A DNA stretch of 13,536 nt from an uncultured Clostridia bacterium. GTDB taxonomy: Bacteria > Bacillota > Clostridia > Lachnospirales > Lachnospiraceae. Below are positions 2,079-13,454 of this stretch, one piece after another. Below the pieces are notes generated by a model. That model did no database searches. It saw only the letters and a list, made by a program, of their open reading frames with translations, and was not told where the DNA came from. How positions within the stretch are numbered: position 1 is the first letter of the stretch; the number at the start of each line of letters is the position of its first letter. Made by a program: the position numbers and the translations under genes. The stretch is taken from contig CAMWWR010000010.1 of NCBI GenBank assembly GCA_947178045.1, forward strand, positions 1 to 13,536. Direction: 5' to 3'.

Positions 2079-2112
2079 ATGAGAACACACTGATAATATG
2101 GGAGGTAAATTC

Positions 2113-3276
2113 ATGAAGCGCACTGCAAAATTTCTTTTCCTTACTCTTTCCGCCGCGCTGCTCGCTTCCTGCGGTCAGAAAGAGCCGCAGGCGGACCCGA
2201 CCCGGGAGCCGGAGCTGTCGGCAACACCGGACGCCGCGGGAAATCCGACCACACCAGAGACCAAGCCAACTGCTGAACCGGAACCAACCACACCGGCGAC
2301 CGAGCCAACTACCGAACCGGCTCCAACCAAACCGGCGGCCGAGCCAACCGCTGAGCCGGACCCGACGGAACCGGCAGCCGATCCAACCGCTGAACCGGCC
2401 CCGACCGAACCCGCGGCTGACCCGACCGCCGAGTCAAATCCGACCGAATCCGGCACCCTGCCGGATGGCTTTTCCGCCCTCTGCCCGGACGAGGTTTCGA
2501 AAAAGCGAGCGGATACCGCCTACGGGACGGTGATCCACAAGACCTATGCCTCAAAGACGACCGGGCTGGACCGGGGCGTGAGCATCCTGCTGCCTCCGAA
2601 TTACAGCGATGAGAAAACCTATCCGGTACTCTACCTGCTGCATGGCATCTTCGGAAATGAATATACGCTTATCCAGGACGCGAGCTGCAAAATTCCGGAG
2701 ATTTCCGCGAACCTTGCCGCGGACGGTCTGGCAAAGGAGATGCTCATCGTGCTGCCGGATATGTACGCCAAAACCGATCCGGCGCAGGCTCCGGCCTTCA
2801 CCGCCGAGGCGGTCGCCCCTTACGATAATTTTATCAACGACCTGGTCAACGATCTGATCCCGTATATCGAAGAGAATTTCTCCGTGCTGACCGACCGGGA
2901 AAACCGCGCGATCGCAGGTTTCTCCATGGGCGGCAGAGAAAGCCTGTTCATCGGCTTCTCCCGCCCGGATCTGTTCAGCAGCGTCGGCGCTATCTCGCCG
3001 GCTCCGGGTCTGACGCCCGGCAGGGACTGGGCGATGAGCCATCCGGGACAGTTCCAGGAGGAGGAGCTCGTGTTCGACGCCTCCGCAGAGGTTCCGTATC
3101 TGATGGTCTGCTGCGGCGACAGCGACAAGACCGTCGGTAAATTCCCGGAAAGCTACCATCGGATTATGACCGAAAACGGGGTGGAGCATGTCTGGTACGA
3201 GATACCGGGCGCAGATCACGACTCCACCGCCATCCGCAGCGGACTGAACAATTTCCTGTCCTCGATTTTCCGCTGA
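2113..3276 (+). CDS. Lipoprotein esterase, CE1/Esterase_D type (feruloyl or acetyl xylan esterase-like)
   Basis: The product is 387 residues. Residues 1-20 are a lipoprotein signal (hydrophobic FLFLTLSAALLASC, lipid Cys20), so it is predicted to be anchored on the outer face of the membrane. Residues ~27-113 form a Pro/Thr/Glu/Ala linker with four 13-residue repeats (58-109). The rest is an alpha/beta-hydrolase esterase: PVLYLLHGIFGNE with the oxyanion-side HG, nucleophile Ser271 in GFSMGG, an acidic candidate in CGDSDK (Asp336 or Asp338), and catalytic His369 in GADHDS. CE1 enzymes of this layout remove feruloyl or acetyl groups from xylan, but formylglutathione-hydrolase-like esterases share the fold, so the substrate is inferred. 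The start at 2113 is six bases after GGGAGGT (2100-2106), preferred over the ATG at 2098. It is convergent with the GH5 gene and shares its anchor-linker-enzyme design. Confidence 0.88.
   Translation: MKRTAKFLFLTLSAALLASCGQKEPQADPTREPELSATPDAAGNPTTPETKPTAEPEPTTPATEPTTEPAPTKPAAEPTAEPDPTEPAADPTAEPAPTEPAADPTAESNPTESGTLPDGFSALCPDEVSKKRADTAYGTVIHKTYASKTTGLDRGVSILLPPNYSDEKTYPVLYLLHGIFGNEYTLIQDASCKIPEISANLAADGLAKEMLIVLPDMYAKTDPAQAPAFTAEAVAPYDNFINDLVNDLIPYIEENFSVLTDRENRAIAGFSMGGRESLFIGFSRPDLFSSVGAISPAPGLTPGRDWAMSHPGQFQEEELVFDASAEVPYLMVCCGDSDKTVGKFPESYHRIMTENGVEHVWYEIPGADHDSTAIRSGLNNFLSSIFR
2284..2439 (+). repeat. Four 39-bp tandem repeats coding the Pro/Thr linker
   Basis: Four in-frame units of 39 bases encode 13-residue repeats with the pattern PT(T/K/E)PA-(T/A)-(E/D)-PT(T/A)E-x-x. 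The last two units are closest to each other. The repeat makes an extended linker that holds the esterase domain away from the membrane anchor, and copy number would be prone to change by slippage or recombination. Confidence 0.85.
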
Positions 3277-3357: not shown

Positions 3358-4758
3358 TTATTCCGCGTACTTCATCAGCGCAGGCACAATCTCCCCAAAT
3401 CTCCACTTCAGCGCCTTGCGGTCGATGAGGCCGAAAAGTTCCCCTTTGCCGACGAACGCGTTGTTGTCCCACCAGCAGCAGGTGATTCCGCGCGCGCGCG
3501 CCGCCGCGACGTAGGCGGTGGAAAAATCAATTCGCGCCTGCGTATTGCTCTTCGCGCGGGCTCCGAATTCCCCGATCACGATCGGAATGCCGTTCTTGAT
3601 AAACTTTTTGTAGAGATTATCCATAAAGCTGGTAAAGCCGACCAGGTCGCTCTTCTTTTTCCAATCGAATTCTGCGGTGCCGTTTTCGTTCAACGCAAAA
3701 TCATAAGGCGAGTAGGCGTGCACAGAGACGATGAGCTTGTTCTCGGCGCTGTCCTCCGGCAGCACAAAGCCGGAATTGAGCACTCCGTCCGGCGAAGCGC
3801 AGTAGCCCGGCACCATAATGTAGCGCTGCGCATTATTGCCCTCCGACGCGCGGATGGTGTTCACAATCACCTGATTCAGCTCGTTGAGCGCCGCCACGGA
3901 ATCCTTGCAGGAGTCATCGTTCCCGTTGAGCCACCACTCGAAATTCGTCCCGACCATTCTCGGCTCGTTCAGCGTCTCAAAAATCAGATGATCATCATAG
4001 TCCGCGAAGCGCGCGGCGATCTGCTCCCACACGCAGGTCACATAATGCGTCGATTGTTCCAGATACTCGGTGGTCGGATACATAAATTCCGTACTGTTGT
4101 CATGATGGATATTGAGGATGACATACATCCCCTCATCAAGCGCCATATCGACGACCTCCTGCACTCTCGCAATCCACGGCTCACTGATCCGGTAATCGTC
4201 CCCCGTCACATGATTGTGCCAGGACACCGGAATGCGGATGGTCTGAAAACCCGCCTCCTTTATGGCCTGAATCAGCCTCAGCGACGCCTTCGCCCCGCAC
4301 CATGCCGATTCGTAGGCAAGCTCATCCTTCACATTGCAGTCTATGGCGTCAAACGAATTTCCGAGATTCCAGCCGATTTTCATATCCCTGACAAACGCGA
4401 GCGAATCGTTTTCCGGAATTTCAAAGCTCTCTGGCGGTATATCCGGAATCTCGTACTGGATCTCCGGAACAGCCGTCGGCTCGGTGGTCGGCGTCGGTTC
4501 CGGCGTTGCCGTCGGCTCCGGAGTCGGCGTCGGTTCTACAGGTGTCGTCGGCTCTGCAGCAGGGGTCGCTTGCGCCGGTGTTGTCGGATCGGCCGGCGTC
4601 TTCCCCCCGTTTCCGCCGCAGCCGGTCAGCGCGCCCGCCGAAAGCACTCCCGCCAGCAGCAGGGCCAGTATCCTCCGGCTCCCTGTTCTCTGTCCGCCTG
4701 CTCTCCTCCCGGCTCTGTTCTCTCCCAGAGCCCTTGGTTTTTCCGCATTCTTCCTCAT
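3358..4758 (-). CDS. GH5 family cellulase-like lipoprotein (endoglucanase, GH5_4-like)
   Basis: The product is 466 residues. An Arg-rich N-terminal region and hydrophobic core end in the lipobox LTGC (lipid Cys47), so it is predicted as a surface lipoprotein. Residues ~50-100 are a Pro/Thr/Glu linker. From ~120 on it is a glycoside hydrolase family 5 barrel: MKIGWNLGNSFDA (124-138), RIPVSW with Arg175, NIHHD (216-220), FETLNEPR with acid/base Glu265, SVHAYS with His347, IVIGEFGA with nucleophile Glu397, and CCWWDNN (427-433). All GH5 catalytic residues are present. GH5 enzymes cleave beta-1,4-glucans and related glucans; the N-terminal motif resembles subfamily 4 (cellulase, xyloglucanase, lichenase), so the exact substrate is inferred. 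The ATG overlaps the exporter stop (ATGA, 4755-4758) with AGGAG at 4769-4773, which indicates translational coupling. The 46-residue signal region is long for a lipoprotein. Confidence 0.93.
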   Translation of the reverse strand: MRKNAEKPRALGENRAGRRAGGQRTGSRRILALLLAGVLSAGALTGCGGNGGKTPADPTTPAQATPAAEPTTPVEPTPTPEPTATPEPTPTTEPTAVPEIQYEIPDIPPESFEIPENDSLAFVRDMKIGWNLGNSFDAIDCNVKDELAYESAWCGAKASLRLIQAIKEAGFQTIRIPVSWHNHVTGDDYRISEPWIARVQEVVDMALDEGMYVILNIHHDNSTEFMYPTTEYLEQSTHYVTCVWEQIAARFADYDDHLIFETLNEPRMVGTNFEWWLNGNDDSCKDSVAALNELNQVIVNTIRASEGNNAQRYIMVPGYCASPDGVLNSGFVLPEDSAENKLIVSVHAYSPYDFALNENGTAEFDWKKKSDLVGFTSFMDNLYKKFIKNGIPIVIGEFGARAKSNTQARIDFSTAYVAAARARGITCCWWDNNAFVGKGELFGLIDRKALKWRFGEIVPALMKYAE

Positions 4759-9780: not shown

Positions 9781-11376
9781 TTACAGTCTCGCCTCCAGCA
9801 GCTTCTTCGTATATTCGTGCTGCGGATTTCGAAACACCTCGTCCGTGCTGCCGCTCTCCACGATCTCTCCGCGGTACATGACAAGCACCCGGTCGCAGAG
9901 CCGGTGTATTACGTTCATATCGTGCGAGATAAACAGGTAAGAGAGCCCGAATTCCTTCTGGAGCCCGACCAGCAGGATCAGAATCTGTTCCTGCACCGTG
10001 ACATCCAGCGCGGATACCGGTTCGTCGAGCAGGATGAGCTTCTGCCGGAGCATGAGCGCCATCGCGATAGCAACCCTCTGCCGCTGTCCGCCCGAGAGCG
10101 TGCCCGGATACCTGTCGTAATATTCCTCCTCCAGCCCCACCTTCCGCAGCATCTCGCACGCTCTCGCCCGGCGCTCCTCCCTAGTTCCGACGCGTCCGAT
10201 GCGCAGCGGCTCCGTCAGAAGCCAGCCGATGGTCTTCGCCGGGTTCAGGCTTCCGTACGGGTCCTGGAACACCATCTGCGGCCGGCTGCATGCGAGCGTG
10301 AGCTCCCCCGCGGTGAGCGGATTGAGCCCCGCCATCGCCTTTGCGAGGGTCGATTTGCCGCAGCCGGATTCTCCAACAATGCCGACGATCTCCCCCTCGC
10401 GGACATCGAAGGAAACGCCTTTTACGACCTCGCGCTTCTCCCTGGCGGCAAACAGTTTTTTCGCCCGTTCCTCATAGTACACGGAATAGTCCCGGACGAC
10501 CGCCGCCATCTGCTCTCCCGGGGCGGACTCCCGCTGCAGCACGCTTCCCTTGCCGAGCGCGGCCGCGAGCAGGCGCTTCGTATATTCCTGCTGCGGATGC
10601 TCGAACAGCTCCTCCACCCGACCCTGCTCGACCACCTCCCCCGCGCACATGACGACCGCCCGGCTGCATACGCTCCGGATCACGCCGAGATCATGGGAGA
10701 TCAGAATAATCGTCGTGCCGTATTCCTCCTGAAACTTTTTCAAAAGCGCCAGAATTTTTGCCTGGATCGTCACGTCCAGCGCCGTCGTCGGCTCGTCCGC
10801 AATCAGAAGGCGCGGGCGCAGAAGCATCGCCATGGCGATCATCACGCGCTGGCGCATTCCGCCCGAAAGCTCGTGAGGGTATTTTTCATACAGCTCCTCG
10901 ACGCCGGAGAGCCCTGCCTCGCCCAGCATGGCGAGCACGCGCTCCCTGCGCGCCTCCTTCGGCGCGTCGTCATGCAGAAGCAGCATTTCCTCCACCTGCG
11001 CTCCGATCGTCATAACCGGATTCAGGGAGGTCATCGGCTCCTGAAAGATCATGGAAATGTCATCGCCGCGCACCGCGCAGAGCTCCTTCTCCGTCAGGTG
11101 GTTCAGCTCCAGGGAGGAACCGTCGCCCGGATAGAACCGGATGCTTCCCTCAACCACCCGCCCCCCGTTTCCGAGCAGTCCGAGCGCCGCCAGCATGCTG
11201 ACGCTCTTGCCTGAGCCGGATTCGCCGACGATGCCGAGCGCCTCGCCGCGGTCGACATGGAAGGATACCCCGTGCGTCACGACACTCATCTCATGCCGCC
11301 GCATCGGAAAGCCGACCGCCACTCCGTCCAGCTCCAGCAGGCGCTCCGCCGCTTTGCCGTTTTTCTCTCCGCTCAT
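9781..11376 (-). CDS. Peptide/nickel-type ABC importer, fused double ATPase (DppD-DppF)
   Basis: One 531-residue protein holds both ATPase domains that are usually separate DppD and DppF (or OppD and OppF). The first has Walker A GESGSGKS (51-58), signature LSGGM (170-174) and Walker B ending ADEP with Glu195. The second has GESGCGKS (335-342), LSGGQ (427-431) and LLDEP with Glu452. Both carry the family's [10 protein letters not shown] or [11 protein letters not shown]-loop and SALDVT or TALDVT D-loops, so both look active. The usual cysteine-bearing tail after each domain (oligo_HPY) is reduced to the EYTK segment with no cysteine cluster. Fused forms such as YejF and GsiA are known. It energises the two permeases upstream; the substrate is probably a peptide, but nickel or a glycan is possible. 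The start follows GGGAGGGAGGA. Confidence 0.93.
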
Positions 11377-11434
11377 GTGATATCCTCCCTCCCGTTTATT
11401 TTCCGGTATCTTGGTATATTTCCGGCTGCCCGCA

Positions 11435-11473
11435 TTACATTCTCCGCGGATCCACCCGCTCTATCGCGGCTGC
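11435..11473 (-). pseudogene. Displaced 3' end of the DppC-like permease gene
   Basis: On the minus strand this segment reads AAAIERVDPRRM and a stop. That is the kind of C-terminal tail (ending in a DPR motif) expected after the final helix of DppC/OppC proteins, and the neighbouring permease itself ends QRVDPRVRIE. It is in a different frame from the permease at 11584-12393 and is separated from that gene's premature stop by about 113 bases of repeat. It is read as the original end of the gene, cut off by the repeat. The restored junction would be close to ENLR followed by AIERVDPRRM; the exact target bases cannot be fixed. Confidence 0.6.
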
Positions 11474-11586
11474 CGCACCTTTGCGGCACAGCTCGTTCTC
11501 CGTCAGTTGCACACGGACTTGCAAAGGAATATGCCGCTTCGCGGCGCAGATTCGGCACTGAAAACGCTTTAAGCAGCGTTTCCTTA
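11474..11586 (-). repeat. Palindromic repeat, copy 2 (long form), inserted in the permease 3' end
   Basis: About 113 bases with three hairpins in transcript sense: AAACGCT/AGCGTTT (11581-11575 with 11568-11562), GCCGC/GCGGC, and TGCCGCA/TGCGGCA near the far end. It starts with TAA, which is the permease stop. TGCGG occurs at both edges and could be a target duplication or chance in GC-rich DNA. It encodes no protein of note and resembles small non-autonomous (MITE- or REP-like) elements. The 5' third matches copy 1 near 9737-9776 at 32 of 39 positions. Confidence 0.65.
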
Positions 11587-12393
11587 CCGCAGATTCTCGC
11601 TGATCAGGCTGAAGCCCAGCACGGTAAACACGATCATAAGCCCCGGCGCGAGCGCCGTCCACGGGGCCGTCATCAGATAGGCCTGCGCCTCCGACAGCAT
11701 CCGTCCGAGGCTGGCATCCGGCGGCTGCACGCCAAGCGAAAGATAGCTCATCCCCGCCTCCGCGAGTATCGCATTGTTCAGGCCGATCGTGATCGTCGAG
11801 AGCAGGATCGGCTTCGTGTTCGGCAGTATATGCACAAACATGATGCGCAGATTGCCCGCGCCGAGCAGCCTCGCATTCCTCACATAGTCGAGCTCCTTCT
11901 GCACAATATATTCGCTGCGCACCACCCGGGCAAAGCTCGGTATGAAAATAATGCCGAGTGCGAGGATGATATTGTATTTTCCGGTGCCGATCACGCTGAC
12001 CAGCACAAGCGCGAGCAGAATGCTCGGGAACGAGGTGAGCGTGTCGTTGAGGCGCATCAGAAGCTCATCGACCACCCCGCCGTAATAGCCGGTGAGCGCG
12101 CCGATCACTGTTCCCGCCGCAAGTCCGATCGCCACAGTGACCAGACTGATCAAAAACGTTGTGCTCGCCCCGTCCATCACGCGGCTCAGGACATCCCTTC
12201 CCATGTTGTCCGTGCCGAACGGATGCGCCGGGCTCGGCGGCTTGTTCTTCAGGGCTACGCTGATCGCCGTCGGATTGTAAGGCGTCCAGAACAGGCCGAT
12301 CACAACGAAGAGCAGCACGGCGGAAACCAGCACGACGCCGAGCACCAGGCTCCAGTTTTTCGTATTCTGTTGTGAACCGCGCCGTTTTTTCAT
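11584..12393 (-). CDS. Peptide-type ABC importer permease, DppC-like, C-terminally truncated
   Basis: This 269-residue membrane protein is the second permease of a peptide-family importer. It has an N-terminal helix (~14-36), the conserved HPFGTDNMGRDVLSRV segment (57-72), five further helices, and the EAA coupling loop (LDYVRNARLLGAGN to HILPN, ~168-192) that docks on the ATPase. The start is the ATG at 12391-12393, six bases after GGGAGG (12400-12405). The frame is open upstream to 12495 but that stretch is low-quality linker. The protein stops at ENLR, about a dozen residues before the family's usual DPR tail. The stop is the first codon of an inserted repeat, and the missing tail is readable downstream. 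The lost part is after the last helix, so function may survive. It lies 119 bases after the DppB-like gene and 207 before the fused ATPase. Confidence 0.92.
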   Translation of the reverse strand: MKKRRGSQQNTKNWSLVLGVVLVSAVLLFVVIGLFWTPYNPTAISVALKNKPPSPAHPFGTDNMGRDVLSRVMDGASTTFLISLVTVAIGLAAGTVIGALTGYYGGVVDELLMRLNDTLTSFPSILLALVLVSVIGTGKYNIILALGIIFIPSFARVVRSEYIVQKELDYVRNARLLGAGNLRIMFVHILPNTKPILLSTITIGLNNAILAEAGMSYLSLGVQPPDASLGRMLSEAQAYLMTAPWTALAPGLMIVFTVLGFSLISENLR

Positions 12394-12400
12394 ACCGCGC

Positions 12401-12434
12401 CTCCCGTATTTTTTGATTTCCCGCACTTTTTGAT
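12401..12434 (-). repeat. Two imperfect 17-bp direct repeats before the DppC-like gene
   Basis: In transcript sense ATCAAAAAGTGCGGGAA (12434-12418) is followed directly by ATCAAAAAATACGGGAG (12417-12401), matching at 14 of 17 positions. The second unit supplies the ribosome site of the DppC-like gene. It looks like a local tandem duplication. Confidence 0.6.
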
Positions 12435-12496
12435 GTTTTGTGCTTTCCGGTTCCCCGCACTGTCCGCTTTTCGGCTGCCTTGTCGGCGGCCGCATC

Positions 12497-12512: not shown

Positions 12513-13454
12513 CTATTCTATCCTGACACGCGGATCGACCCTCTGGTAGAGGATGTCCACGATAAAATTCACAATCAGCACGATCGCCGCAATGTAGACG
12601 ACGATCGCCTCGACAACCGGATAGTCCCGGTTCCCGATCGCAACGACAAGCAGTCTGCCGACGCCCGGCAGATTAAATACCTTCTCAATCACGATACTCC
12701 CTGCGAGAACGTCCGCGATCACCATTCCCATAAAGGTGATAACCGGAATCAGCGCGTTCTTCAGCACATGACGCCACAGCACGGCGCGCTCCGTATTTCC
12801 CTTGCTGCGCGCGGTCCGCACATAGTCCAGCTTGCGCTCCCGCAGCACGGAGGTCTTTAAAAATTTGACGGTCATCGCGATCTTGGGAACCGAGATCGCC
12901 GCCGCCGGGAAAATTATATAATGCAGGAACTTTCCAAAATTTTCCCCCGGCGAGACGTAGCTGCCCGGCGAAAACCACTTTAAGATTACGCCGAAAAAAA
13001 GAGTGATGAGCATTCCGAGAAAAAACGCGGGCACGGCCATCAGCGTCTGCGTCAGCAGCGTGACCGCACGGTCCGCGATCCCGCCCTCCTTTTTCGAGCA
13101 GAGCAGCCCGAGCGGAACCGAGATGACCGCGATCATCAGGATCGAGACGGCGGCGAGCCCGACCGTCGCCGGAAGCCGCGCCGCCAGCAGCTCCGATACC
13201 GGCGTGCTGTACTGGTAGGATATGCCGAAATCACCGCGCACCGCGCCGCCGAGAAAGCGGAAAAACCGCTCCGCCAGGCTTTTGTTCAACCCCAGGGATT
13301 CCCGCAGCGCCTCAACCTCCTCCGGCTCGGCATCCACGCCGAGCCGCGAGATTGCCCCGTCCCCCGGAATAACCTGAAAGGCGAGGAAGGTCAGCAGCAT
13401 GATCAGAAACAATACCATAATGAGAGAAACGATTTTTTTCACATAATACCGCAT
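12513..13454 (-). CDS. Peptide-type ABC importer permease, DppB-like
   Basis: This 313-residue inner permease has the DppB/OppB layout. A first helix (~8-28) ends FQVIPGD, followed by the extracellular segment with LGLNKSLAERFFRFL and GDFGISYQYSTPV (the family's G-D-x-G-x-S motif), then five helices with VPAFFLGMLI (141-150). The EAA coupling loop is LDYVRTARSKGN to HVLKNALIPV (~209-238), and the tail is DILYQRVDPRVRIE. Length and features are normal for the family. The ATG at 13452-13454 follows a strong AAAGGAGGGG (13461-13470). It forms the translocation path with the DppC-like protein and is driven by the fused ATPase; the binding protein is not in the window. A GC-rich hairpin (CCGGGC/GCCCGG) directly follows the stop. 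Confidence 0.94.
   Translation of the reverse strand: MRYYVKKIVSLIMVLFLIMLLTFLAFQVIPGDGAISRLGVDAEPEEVEALRESLGLNKSLAERFFRFLGGAVRGDFGISYQYSTPVSELLAARLPATVGLAAVSILMIAVISVPLGLLCSKKEGGIADRAVTLLTQTLMAVPAFFLGMLITLFFGVILKWFSPGSYVSPGENFGKFLHYIIFPAAAISVPKIAMTVKFLKTSVLRERKLDYVRTARSKGNTERAVLWRHVLKNALIPVITFMGMVIADVLAGSIVIEKVFNLPGVGRLLVVAIGNRDYPVVEAIVVYIAAIVLIVNFIVDILYQRVDPRVRIE

Follow-up and report, generated by a model that had tools for sequence, protein, structure and literature searches.

A probable IS5-type miniature repeat behind the stop codon of an apparently intact DppC-like permease gene, and its structured core in Lachnospiraceae

MITEPsy1 of Pseudomonas syringae is a 100-nt non-autonomous element with a GGAAGG-type end that has been ascribed to the IS5-family element ISPsy2; it inserts behind CTAG or YTAA, duplicating 4 nt, and is present in six copies in the strain studied (PMC3189936). 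The repeat described here is likewise an IS5-type MITE with the same class of target, but the accessible text on MITEPsy1 mentions neither a conserved core nor a stop-codon bias. The pneumococcal BOX element is reported, in the accessible part of its description, to provide 36 of the 58 genes that it overlaps with their stop codons, with truncation lacking strong evidence, and the similarity of its ends to ISSpn2 is described as low (PMC3049150). Compared by description only, BOX resembles our repeat in being modular and structured; it differs in its host and its modules, whereas in the present case the IS that donates the ends was itself read and the core is found again next to other ends. 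REP/BIME sequences and their RAYT partners offer a further likeness, as these too are described in the available text as short palindromes, single or composite (PMC2817692), but the ends of our repeat are the inverted repeats of a DDE transposon and five carrier genomes gave no Y1 match. IS5-family IS (NF033581) have terminal repeats and a YTAR target in common with the repeats, which differ in lacking a transposase gene and in bearing a structured core absent from the IS that was read. Placement at stop codons is an already known phenomenon; here it comes with a direct target-site explanation. The literature searched, with most subscription journals lying outside it, gave no description of this repeat or of a family-wide core with different ends.

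The window is the whole stretch of DNA analysed, 13,536 nucleotides from the genome that we label G000. On its minus strand, a DppB-like permease gene (12513–13454, C-terminus RVDPRVRIE) lies upstream of a DppC-like permease ORF (11584–12495; 303 aa as listed, or 268 aa from the ATG at 12390), and a fused peptide-transporter ATPase gene with two ABC_tran stretches and an oligo_HPY domain lies downstream (9781–11376, start codon at 11376). The DppC-like ORF terminates as ENLR followed by TAA (11586–11584), and a hairpin-rich repeat stands directly behind it. The sequence-only reading had placed a small mobile repeat between two genes of apparently one operon, which our results support, and its account of the permease reading to ENLR and a TAA, with a AAAIERVDPRRM-stop stretch in another frame at 11476–11435 (minus strand), was confirmed; this stretch lies outside the repeat.

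The repeat copy occupies 11495–11586 (minus strand) and is right-truncated, the terminal palindrome of full copies being missing. It consists of a left terminal hairpin, GGAAACGCTGCTTAAAGCGTTTTC (11560–11583), which bears an IS5-type terminal inverted repeat, and a decayed structured core (11495–11558) that matches model R1 over all 64 model positions (cmsearch 61.6 bits, E 3.7e-11). A GCGAAGC mini-hairpin (11536–11542), read from the sequence and from alignment A3, closes the inner stem of the core, while the long stem contains two mismatches and the second mini-hairpin is absent. BLAST similarity to the repeat consensus stops at 11498, and no similarity to the repeat was seen in 11377–11494. 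The 113-bp element originally proposed thus stands as repeat-derived DNA with an extent of about 90 bp, the rest being ordinary intergenic DNA, and the decay of the copy contradicts the idea of a recent insertion. The TAA stop codon (11584–11586) sits at the position of the element's target duplication, where the left flank is GTAA, one base short of YTAR; the right end is absent, so the copy's own target duplication is unreadable. Folded alone, the window copy is unexceptional (z −1.55 for the minus strand, −0.79 for the plus strand; 11460–11600), and structural support for the element comes from the repeat family, not from this copy. Rfam 15 returned no family at gathering score in the window and, for the one full copy searched, none at E ≤ 1.

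The further copies anticipated in the genome were found: the 113-bp query hit at least 40 places in G000 at E ≤ 0.001 (40 of the 83 candidates scored), and, with a single mismatch allowed, the terminal word GGAARCGCTGATTNAA occurred 95 + 102 times versus 0 + 0 for a reversed-pattern control. Copies take three forms: a short hairpin of ~24–28 bp; a 27-bp palindrome equivalent to a pair of abutting terminal repeats; and a composite in which a terminal hairpin is followed by the core and then by a terminal palindrome. Thirty-six full composites from four genomes measure 109–141 nt without the target. The repeat is short, present in many copies and non-coding, coding potential having been judged by length and stops alone. 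Many of the copies (L113, L114, L124, L131 and others) are solo 27-bp palindromes, two terminal inverted repeats with nothing between, which may be the smallest possible MITE. At L125 (~3855–3935, G000:C69), one terminal palindrome appears by eye to interrupt a second copy of the same sequence, as a nested self-insertion.

A partner for these ends was read in G144, a repeat-rich relative, where two facing terminal words enclose one 338-aa ORF within 1.22 kb. The element runs from GGAAACGCTGATTAATT to AATTAATCAGCGTTTCC with CTAG on either side, and encodes a transposase of the IS5 family (NF033581, E 4.6e-85; DDE_Tnp_1 and DUF772). G171 carries a 70%-identical copy, also flanked by CTAG, plus a fragment, and the terminal word of the repeat is the inverted repeat of the IS5-family element in both genomes. 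The transposase found no match in ten other genomes searched, among them G000, whose assembly is 69% complete. A transposase scan with one genome per species yielded 52 loci, and 35 loci were checked for ends and flanks (33 of those 52 and two from the G144/G171 search, with one locus entered twice, some from the same genome and some cut by contig ends). Inverted ends with identical 4-bp flanks were found at 18 of the 35, and 16 of these 18 flanks were YTAR, in a search that favoured identical flanks.

The repeats themselves point to the same target. Among 94 copies with both ends known, from four genomes, 34 have identical 4-bp flanks, compared with a mean of 11.8 and a maximum of 21 over 1000 shuffles, and YTAR occurs on both sides of 38 copies, on one side of 38 and on neither side of 18. 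The 60 copies without identical flanks and the 18 with YTAR on neither side count against this account. A TA or 3-bp target duplication, suggested by the first copies, was dropped for the 4-bp YTAR once the IS had been read. Since the reverse complement of YTAR is again YTAR, a TAA or TAG is available in the target whichever way it is read, and insertion behind a stop codon would keep the protein intact.

Where insertions fall relative to genes was counted in 86 fetched loci from G000 (282 kb with some overlap), which were selected for holding repeats; gene calls came from ORF scoring of our own and not from an established gene-finding program, and the background consisted of YTAR sites in these loci that lay 200 nt or more from any repeat. 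Twenty-four of 89 insertions were at a stop codon, 17 within 60 nt downstream, 40 in other intergenic DNA and eight in genes, whereas background sites were distributed as 14, 35, 229 and 200 over the same classes. Stop-abutting sites made up 24/81 of non-coding insertions versus 14/278 of background sites, an enrichment that holds against other non-coding positions (odds ratio 7.9, p 1e-8) and, with an odds ratio of 3.5 (p 0.005), against the 60-nt zone, and coding sites were avoided (odds ratio 0.14, p 3e-10). An initial count with TTAR sites agrees (24/82 vs 14/269). Neighbouring genes were in tandem at 31 of the 89 insertions, convergent at 19 and divergent at five, with one insertion inside a gene and 33 undecided at the edges of contigs or loci; the shift away from divergent neighbours relative to background was not significant (p 0.07).

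Because TAR is part of the target, a gene that reads TAR in frame would have ended there before the insertion; two of the 24 stop-abutting genes (L011, L116) end in TGA instead. An NCBIfam scan covered 20 of the 24, leaving out the permease, L016, L131 and L140. Twelve of the 20 match a model to within ~5 positions of the model end and ~15 residues of their own end in our judgement, many of the NCBIfam matches falling below the model's naming cut-off. None of the other eight had a best match that reached the protein end while far short of the model end, and by reading we saw no cut-off gene among the 20 scanned.

We consider it highly probable that the repeat in the window is an old non-autonomous MITE with IS5-type ends, which inserted directly behind the permease's native TAA and later lost its right end. 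The position of the TAA at the target duplication suggests that the in-frame stop predates the insertion. An IS5 transposase would have moved the repeat in trans, making the YTAR duplication; with a stop codon available in both orientations the protein would have stayed intact and the copy been tolerated, and the core may have been retained because of the structure it forms, which could act at the level of single-stranded DNA. A repeat lying against a stop codon need not mean a truncated gene, since the IS5-type target has stops in both orientations.

The core forms a hairpin whose pairs covary strongly; its bulged T is invariant, and its mini-loops are of GNA type. In the 36 composites, 93.1% of cells are paired versus at most 44% when the alignment is slid, and 16 pairs are changed on both sides versus 8.2 in shuffles. 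Alignment A3 (53 copies from 47 sources), which was fitted to the model and so leans towards it, has 96.3% of cells paired versus 21–53% when slid, with 15 of 18 pairs changing on both sides and a covariation of 0.518 versus 0.174. All 53 copies have an unpaired T at one and the same position, and in 27 of them the inner loop reads GAA. Downstream, 39 of the 53 accommodate an NNN-GNA-NNN mini-hairpin (~33 in the expected form; shuffled mean 4.2, maximum 10), which has no fit in the window copy. A3 also keeps TTCC and ATCC segments. Covariation of this kind renders the core structure directly testable.

With a model built from 19 copies, the core was detected in 113 of 397 genomes of the host family, Lachnospiraceae, and in 106 of 334 genera (E ≤ 0.001, at most 13 candidates scored per genome), exposing a structured module whose ends vary by genome. 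A class-level draw gave seven of 391 genomes at E ≤ 1e-5, of which four lie outside the host family. Core places number 25 in G364, 37 in G096, seven in G219 and 26 in the single-contig G347. Fifteen of the 26 in G347 score identically, which suggests recent spread; the strand of its 26 places relative to replication, judged by eye from an assumed origin, had no clear bias. The composites L183 and L198 of G171 have core stems very unlike that of L179 yet largely paired, so that two core subfamilies coexist in that genome.

The core is not confined to IS5-type ends. Searches with the DNA consensus returned core-like matches in G004, G009 and G118 with other terminal hairpins, and in 35 genomes, one copy each, the IS5-type word was present on both sides in 10, upstream only in four and on neither side in 21, the loose terminal word possibly accepting chance matches among the upstream-only cases, as in G118. 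Inverted repeats exceeded the 95th percentile of controls at 21 of 34 upstream and 29 of 34 downstream flanks. By eye, G004, from the window's own genus, contains decayed IS5-type copies (L050, L055) alongside a distinct group whose ends are of the GGTATAATGTC type. The occurrence of IS5-type and other ends around one core argues against the core being a mere IS5 remnant. In G004, L059, L062 and L065 (G004:C11:25108-25398) are core units that carry GGTATAATGTC-type hairpins and follow one another in tandem every 111 bp. In G347, ACCACCTGAAAGAGGTGGGAGTCT stands exactly behind four of seven copies (L329, L333, L337, L340, L344, L348, L352), is changed in two and absent in one; we take it to resemble an IS200/IS605-type right end.

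According to the accessible text of one report, a DNA mini-hairpin that has a GNA or GNNA loop and two or more G-C pairs, GCGAAGC for example, is extraordinarily stable (PMC4686876). Together with the bulged T, the core's GNA mini-hairpins suggest that it is recognised as single-stranded DNA in folded form. The hairpins read by single-strand transposases and integron integrases have bulged bases among their features. We tentatively hypothesize, at less than even likelihood, that the core is an independent transferable module, a folded single-stranded DNA hairpin with its invariant bulged T and two GNA-loop mini-hairpins, which would be recognised by a protein and acquired repeatedly across Lachnospiraceae by unrelated mobile elements exchanging their terminal repeats around it. 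If the fold does act as single-stranded DNA, a binding protein and a step in the biology of mobile elements would await discovery.

Paired changes in the core might instead be the product of neutral palindrome correction, by template switching at hairpins, with no selection on the fold. Such correction can make imperfect palindromes perfect, and the single transitions common in individual copies are in keeping with it, but by itself it leaves unexplained the T unpaired in 53/53 copies, the frequent GNA loops and the kept TTCC/ATCC segments, and we regard it as unlikely.

Less probable again, and in our judgement quite doubtful, is retention of the repeat for a role in mRNA, as a 3' stabiliser, a processing site or a partial terminator at the permease–ATPase gene junction. 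The concentration of copies behind genes favours it, but selection against insertions in genes and promoters would give the same location without any function, and the window copy lacks the right hairpin together with two pairs of the stem. Counts of wobble cells are mixed, and to that extent an RNA role may hold: G-U versus A-C cells stand at 32 to 9 in A3, an RNA-like excess of which 18 of the 32 come from one pair (14 to 9 in the remainder), whereas in A1, the composite alignment, a hand count gave 25 to 25.

The sequence-only reading had held that the repeat split the permease gene, an insertion having recently removed the last dozen residues and left AAAIERVDPRRM as their remnant, and this we consider very improbable. 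Five same-genus orthologues (G001–G005, ~81–85% identity) end in ENLK, ENLKN, ENIGKKNG, ENIKGSAA and ENIGRRERDFGGK, that is, zero to nine residues beyond the end of the window protein; none has the tail, and no element word occurs within 200 nt behind the permease gene in any of the five. The nearest homologue, P0001 (92% identity), ends exactly at ENLR. Its locus may itself carry the element, so the element-free orthologues are the independent evidence. Classical DppC/OppC proteins do bear a DPR/DPK tail, which the earlier reading had seen in AAAIERVDPRRM, but among the 120 homologues listed (of 4837 matches) none has DPR or DPK in its last 16 residues. Among 17 further orthologues, a DAFDPK tail is present only in the most distant (~35–38% identity), the one such case that favours the remnant, and one other is fused to an ATPase. 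The Pfam domain has 184 positions, of which the window protein reaches 171 and eight tested homologues 170–181, so that the domain extends 13 positions past the window protein and the homologues are likewise 3–14 positions short. The C-terminus of the permease (11584–12495) thus matches the pattern of its homologues, and the gene is, as judged from these alignments, whole; damage to it by the repeat is not supported, and the outcomes that the sequence-only reading had itself set as contradicting a split gene were obtained. The decay of the repeat also speaks against a recent event.

The similarity of the RVDPR reading to the DppB-like tail lends the remnant some support: 14 of 16 bases are common to 11445–11460 and 12529–12544, a score of 22 versus a maximum of 21 in 300 shuffles, for a comparison with the dppB 3' end that was picked after the fact. 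This match falls outside the MITE account and counts against it. Set against the orthologous intergenic DNA of the five relatives, the RVDPR reading had no convincing homology.

A REP/BIME element mobilised by a Y1 (RAYT) transposase, which many copies, palindromes and a location behind genes might recall, is the least probable origin of all, given that the ends match the IS5 element, that G000, G003, G004, G144 and G171 contain no Y1_Tnp match, and that Y1 matches in seven of 19 core-rich versus nine of 16 core-less genomes have no association with the core.

Two smaller observations concern the genes themselves. At L047 (G017:C11), a DppC-like permease continues in frame into the transporter ATPase in an 865-aa open frame, a natural fusion. 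Elsewhere in the window, ORFs at 2098–3276 and 3358–4758, esterase-like and glycoside-hydrolase-like by eye, are convergently transcribed, and both have long Pro/Thr/Glu-rich linkers.
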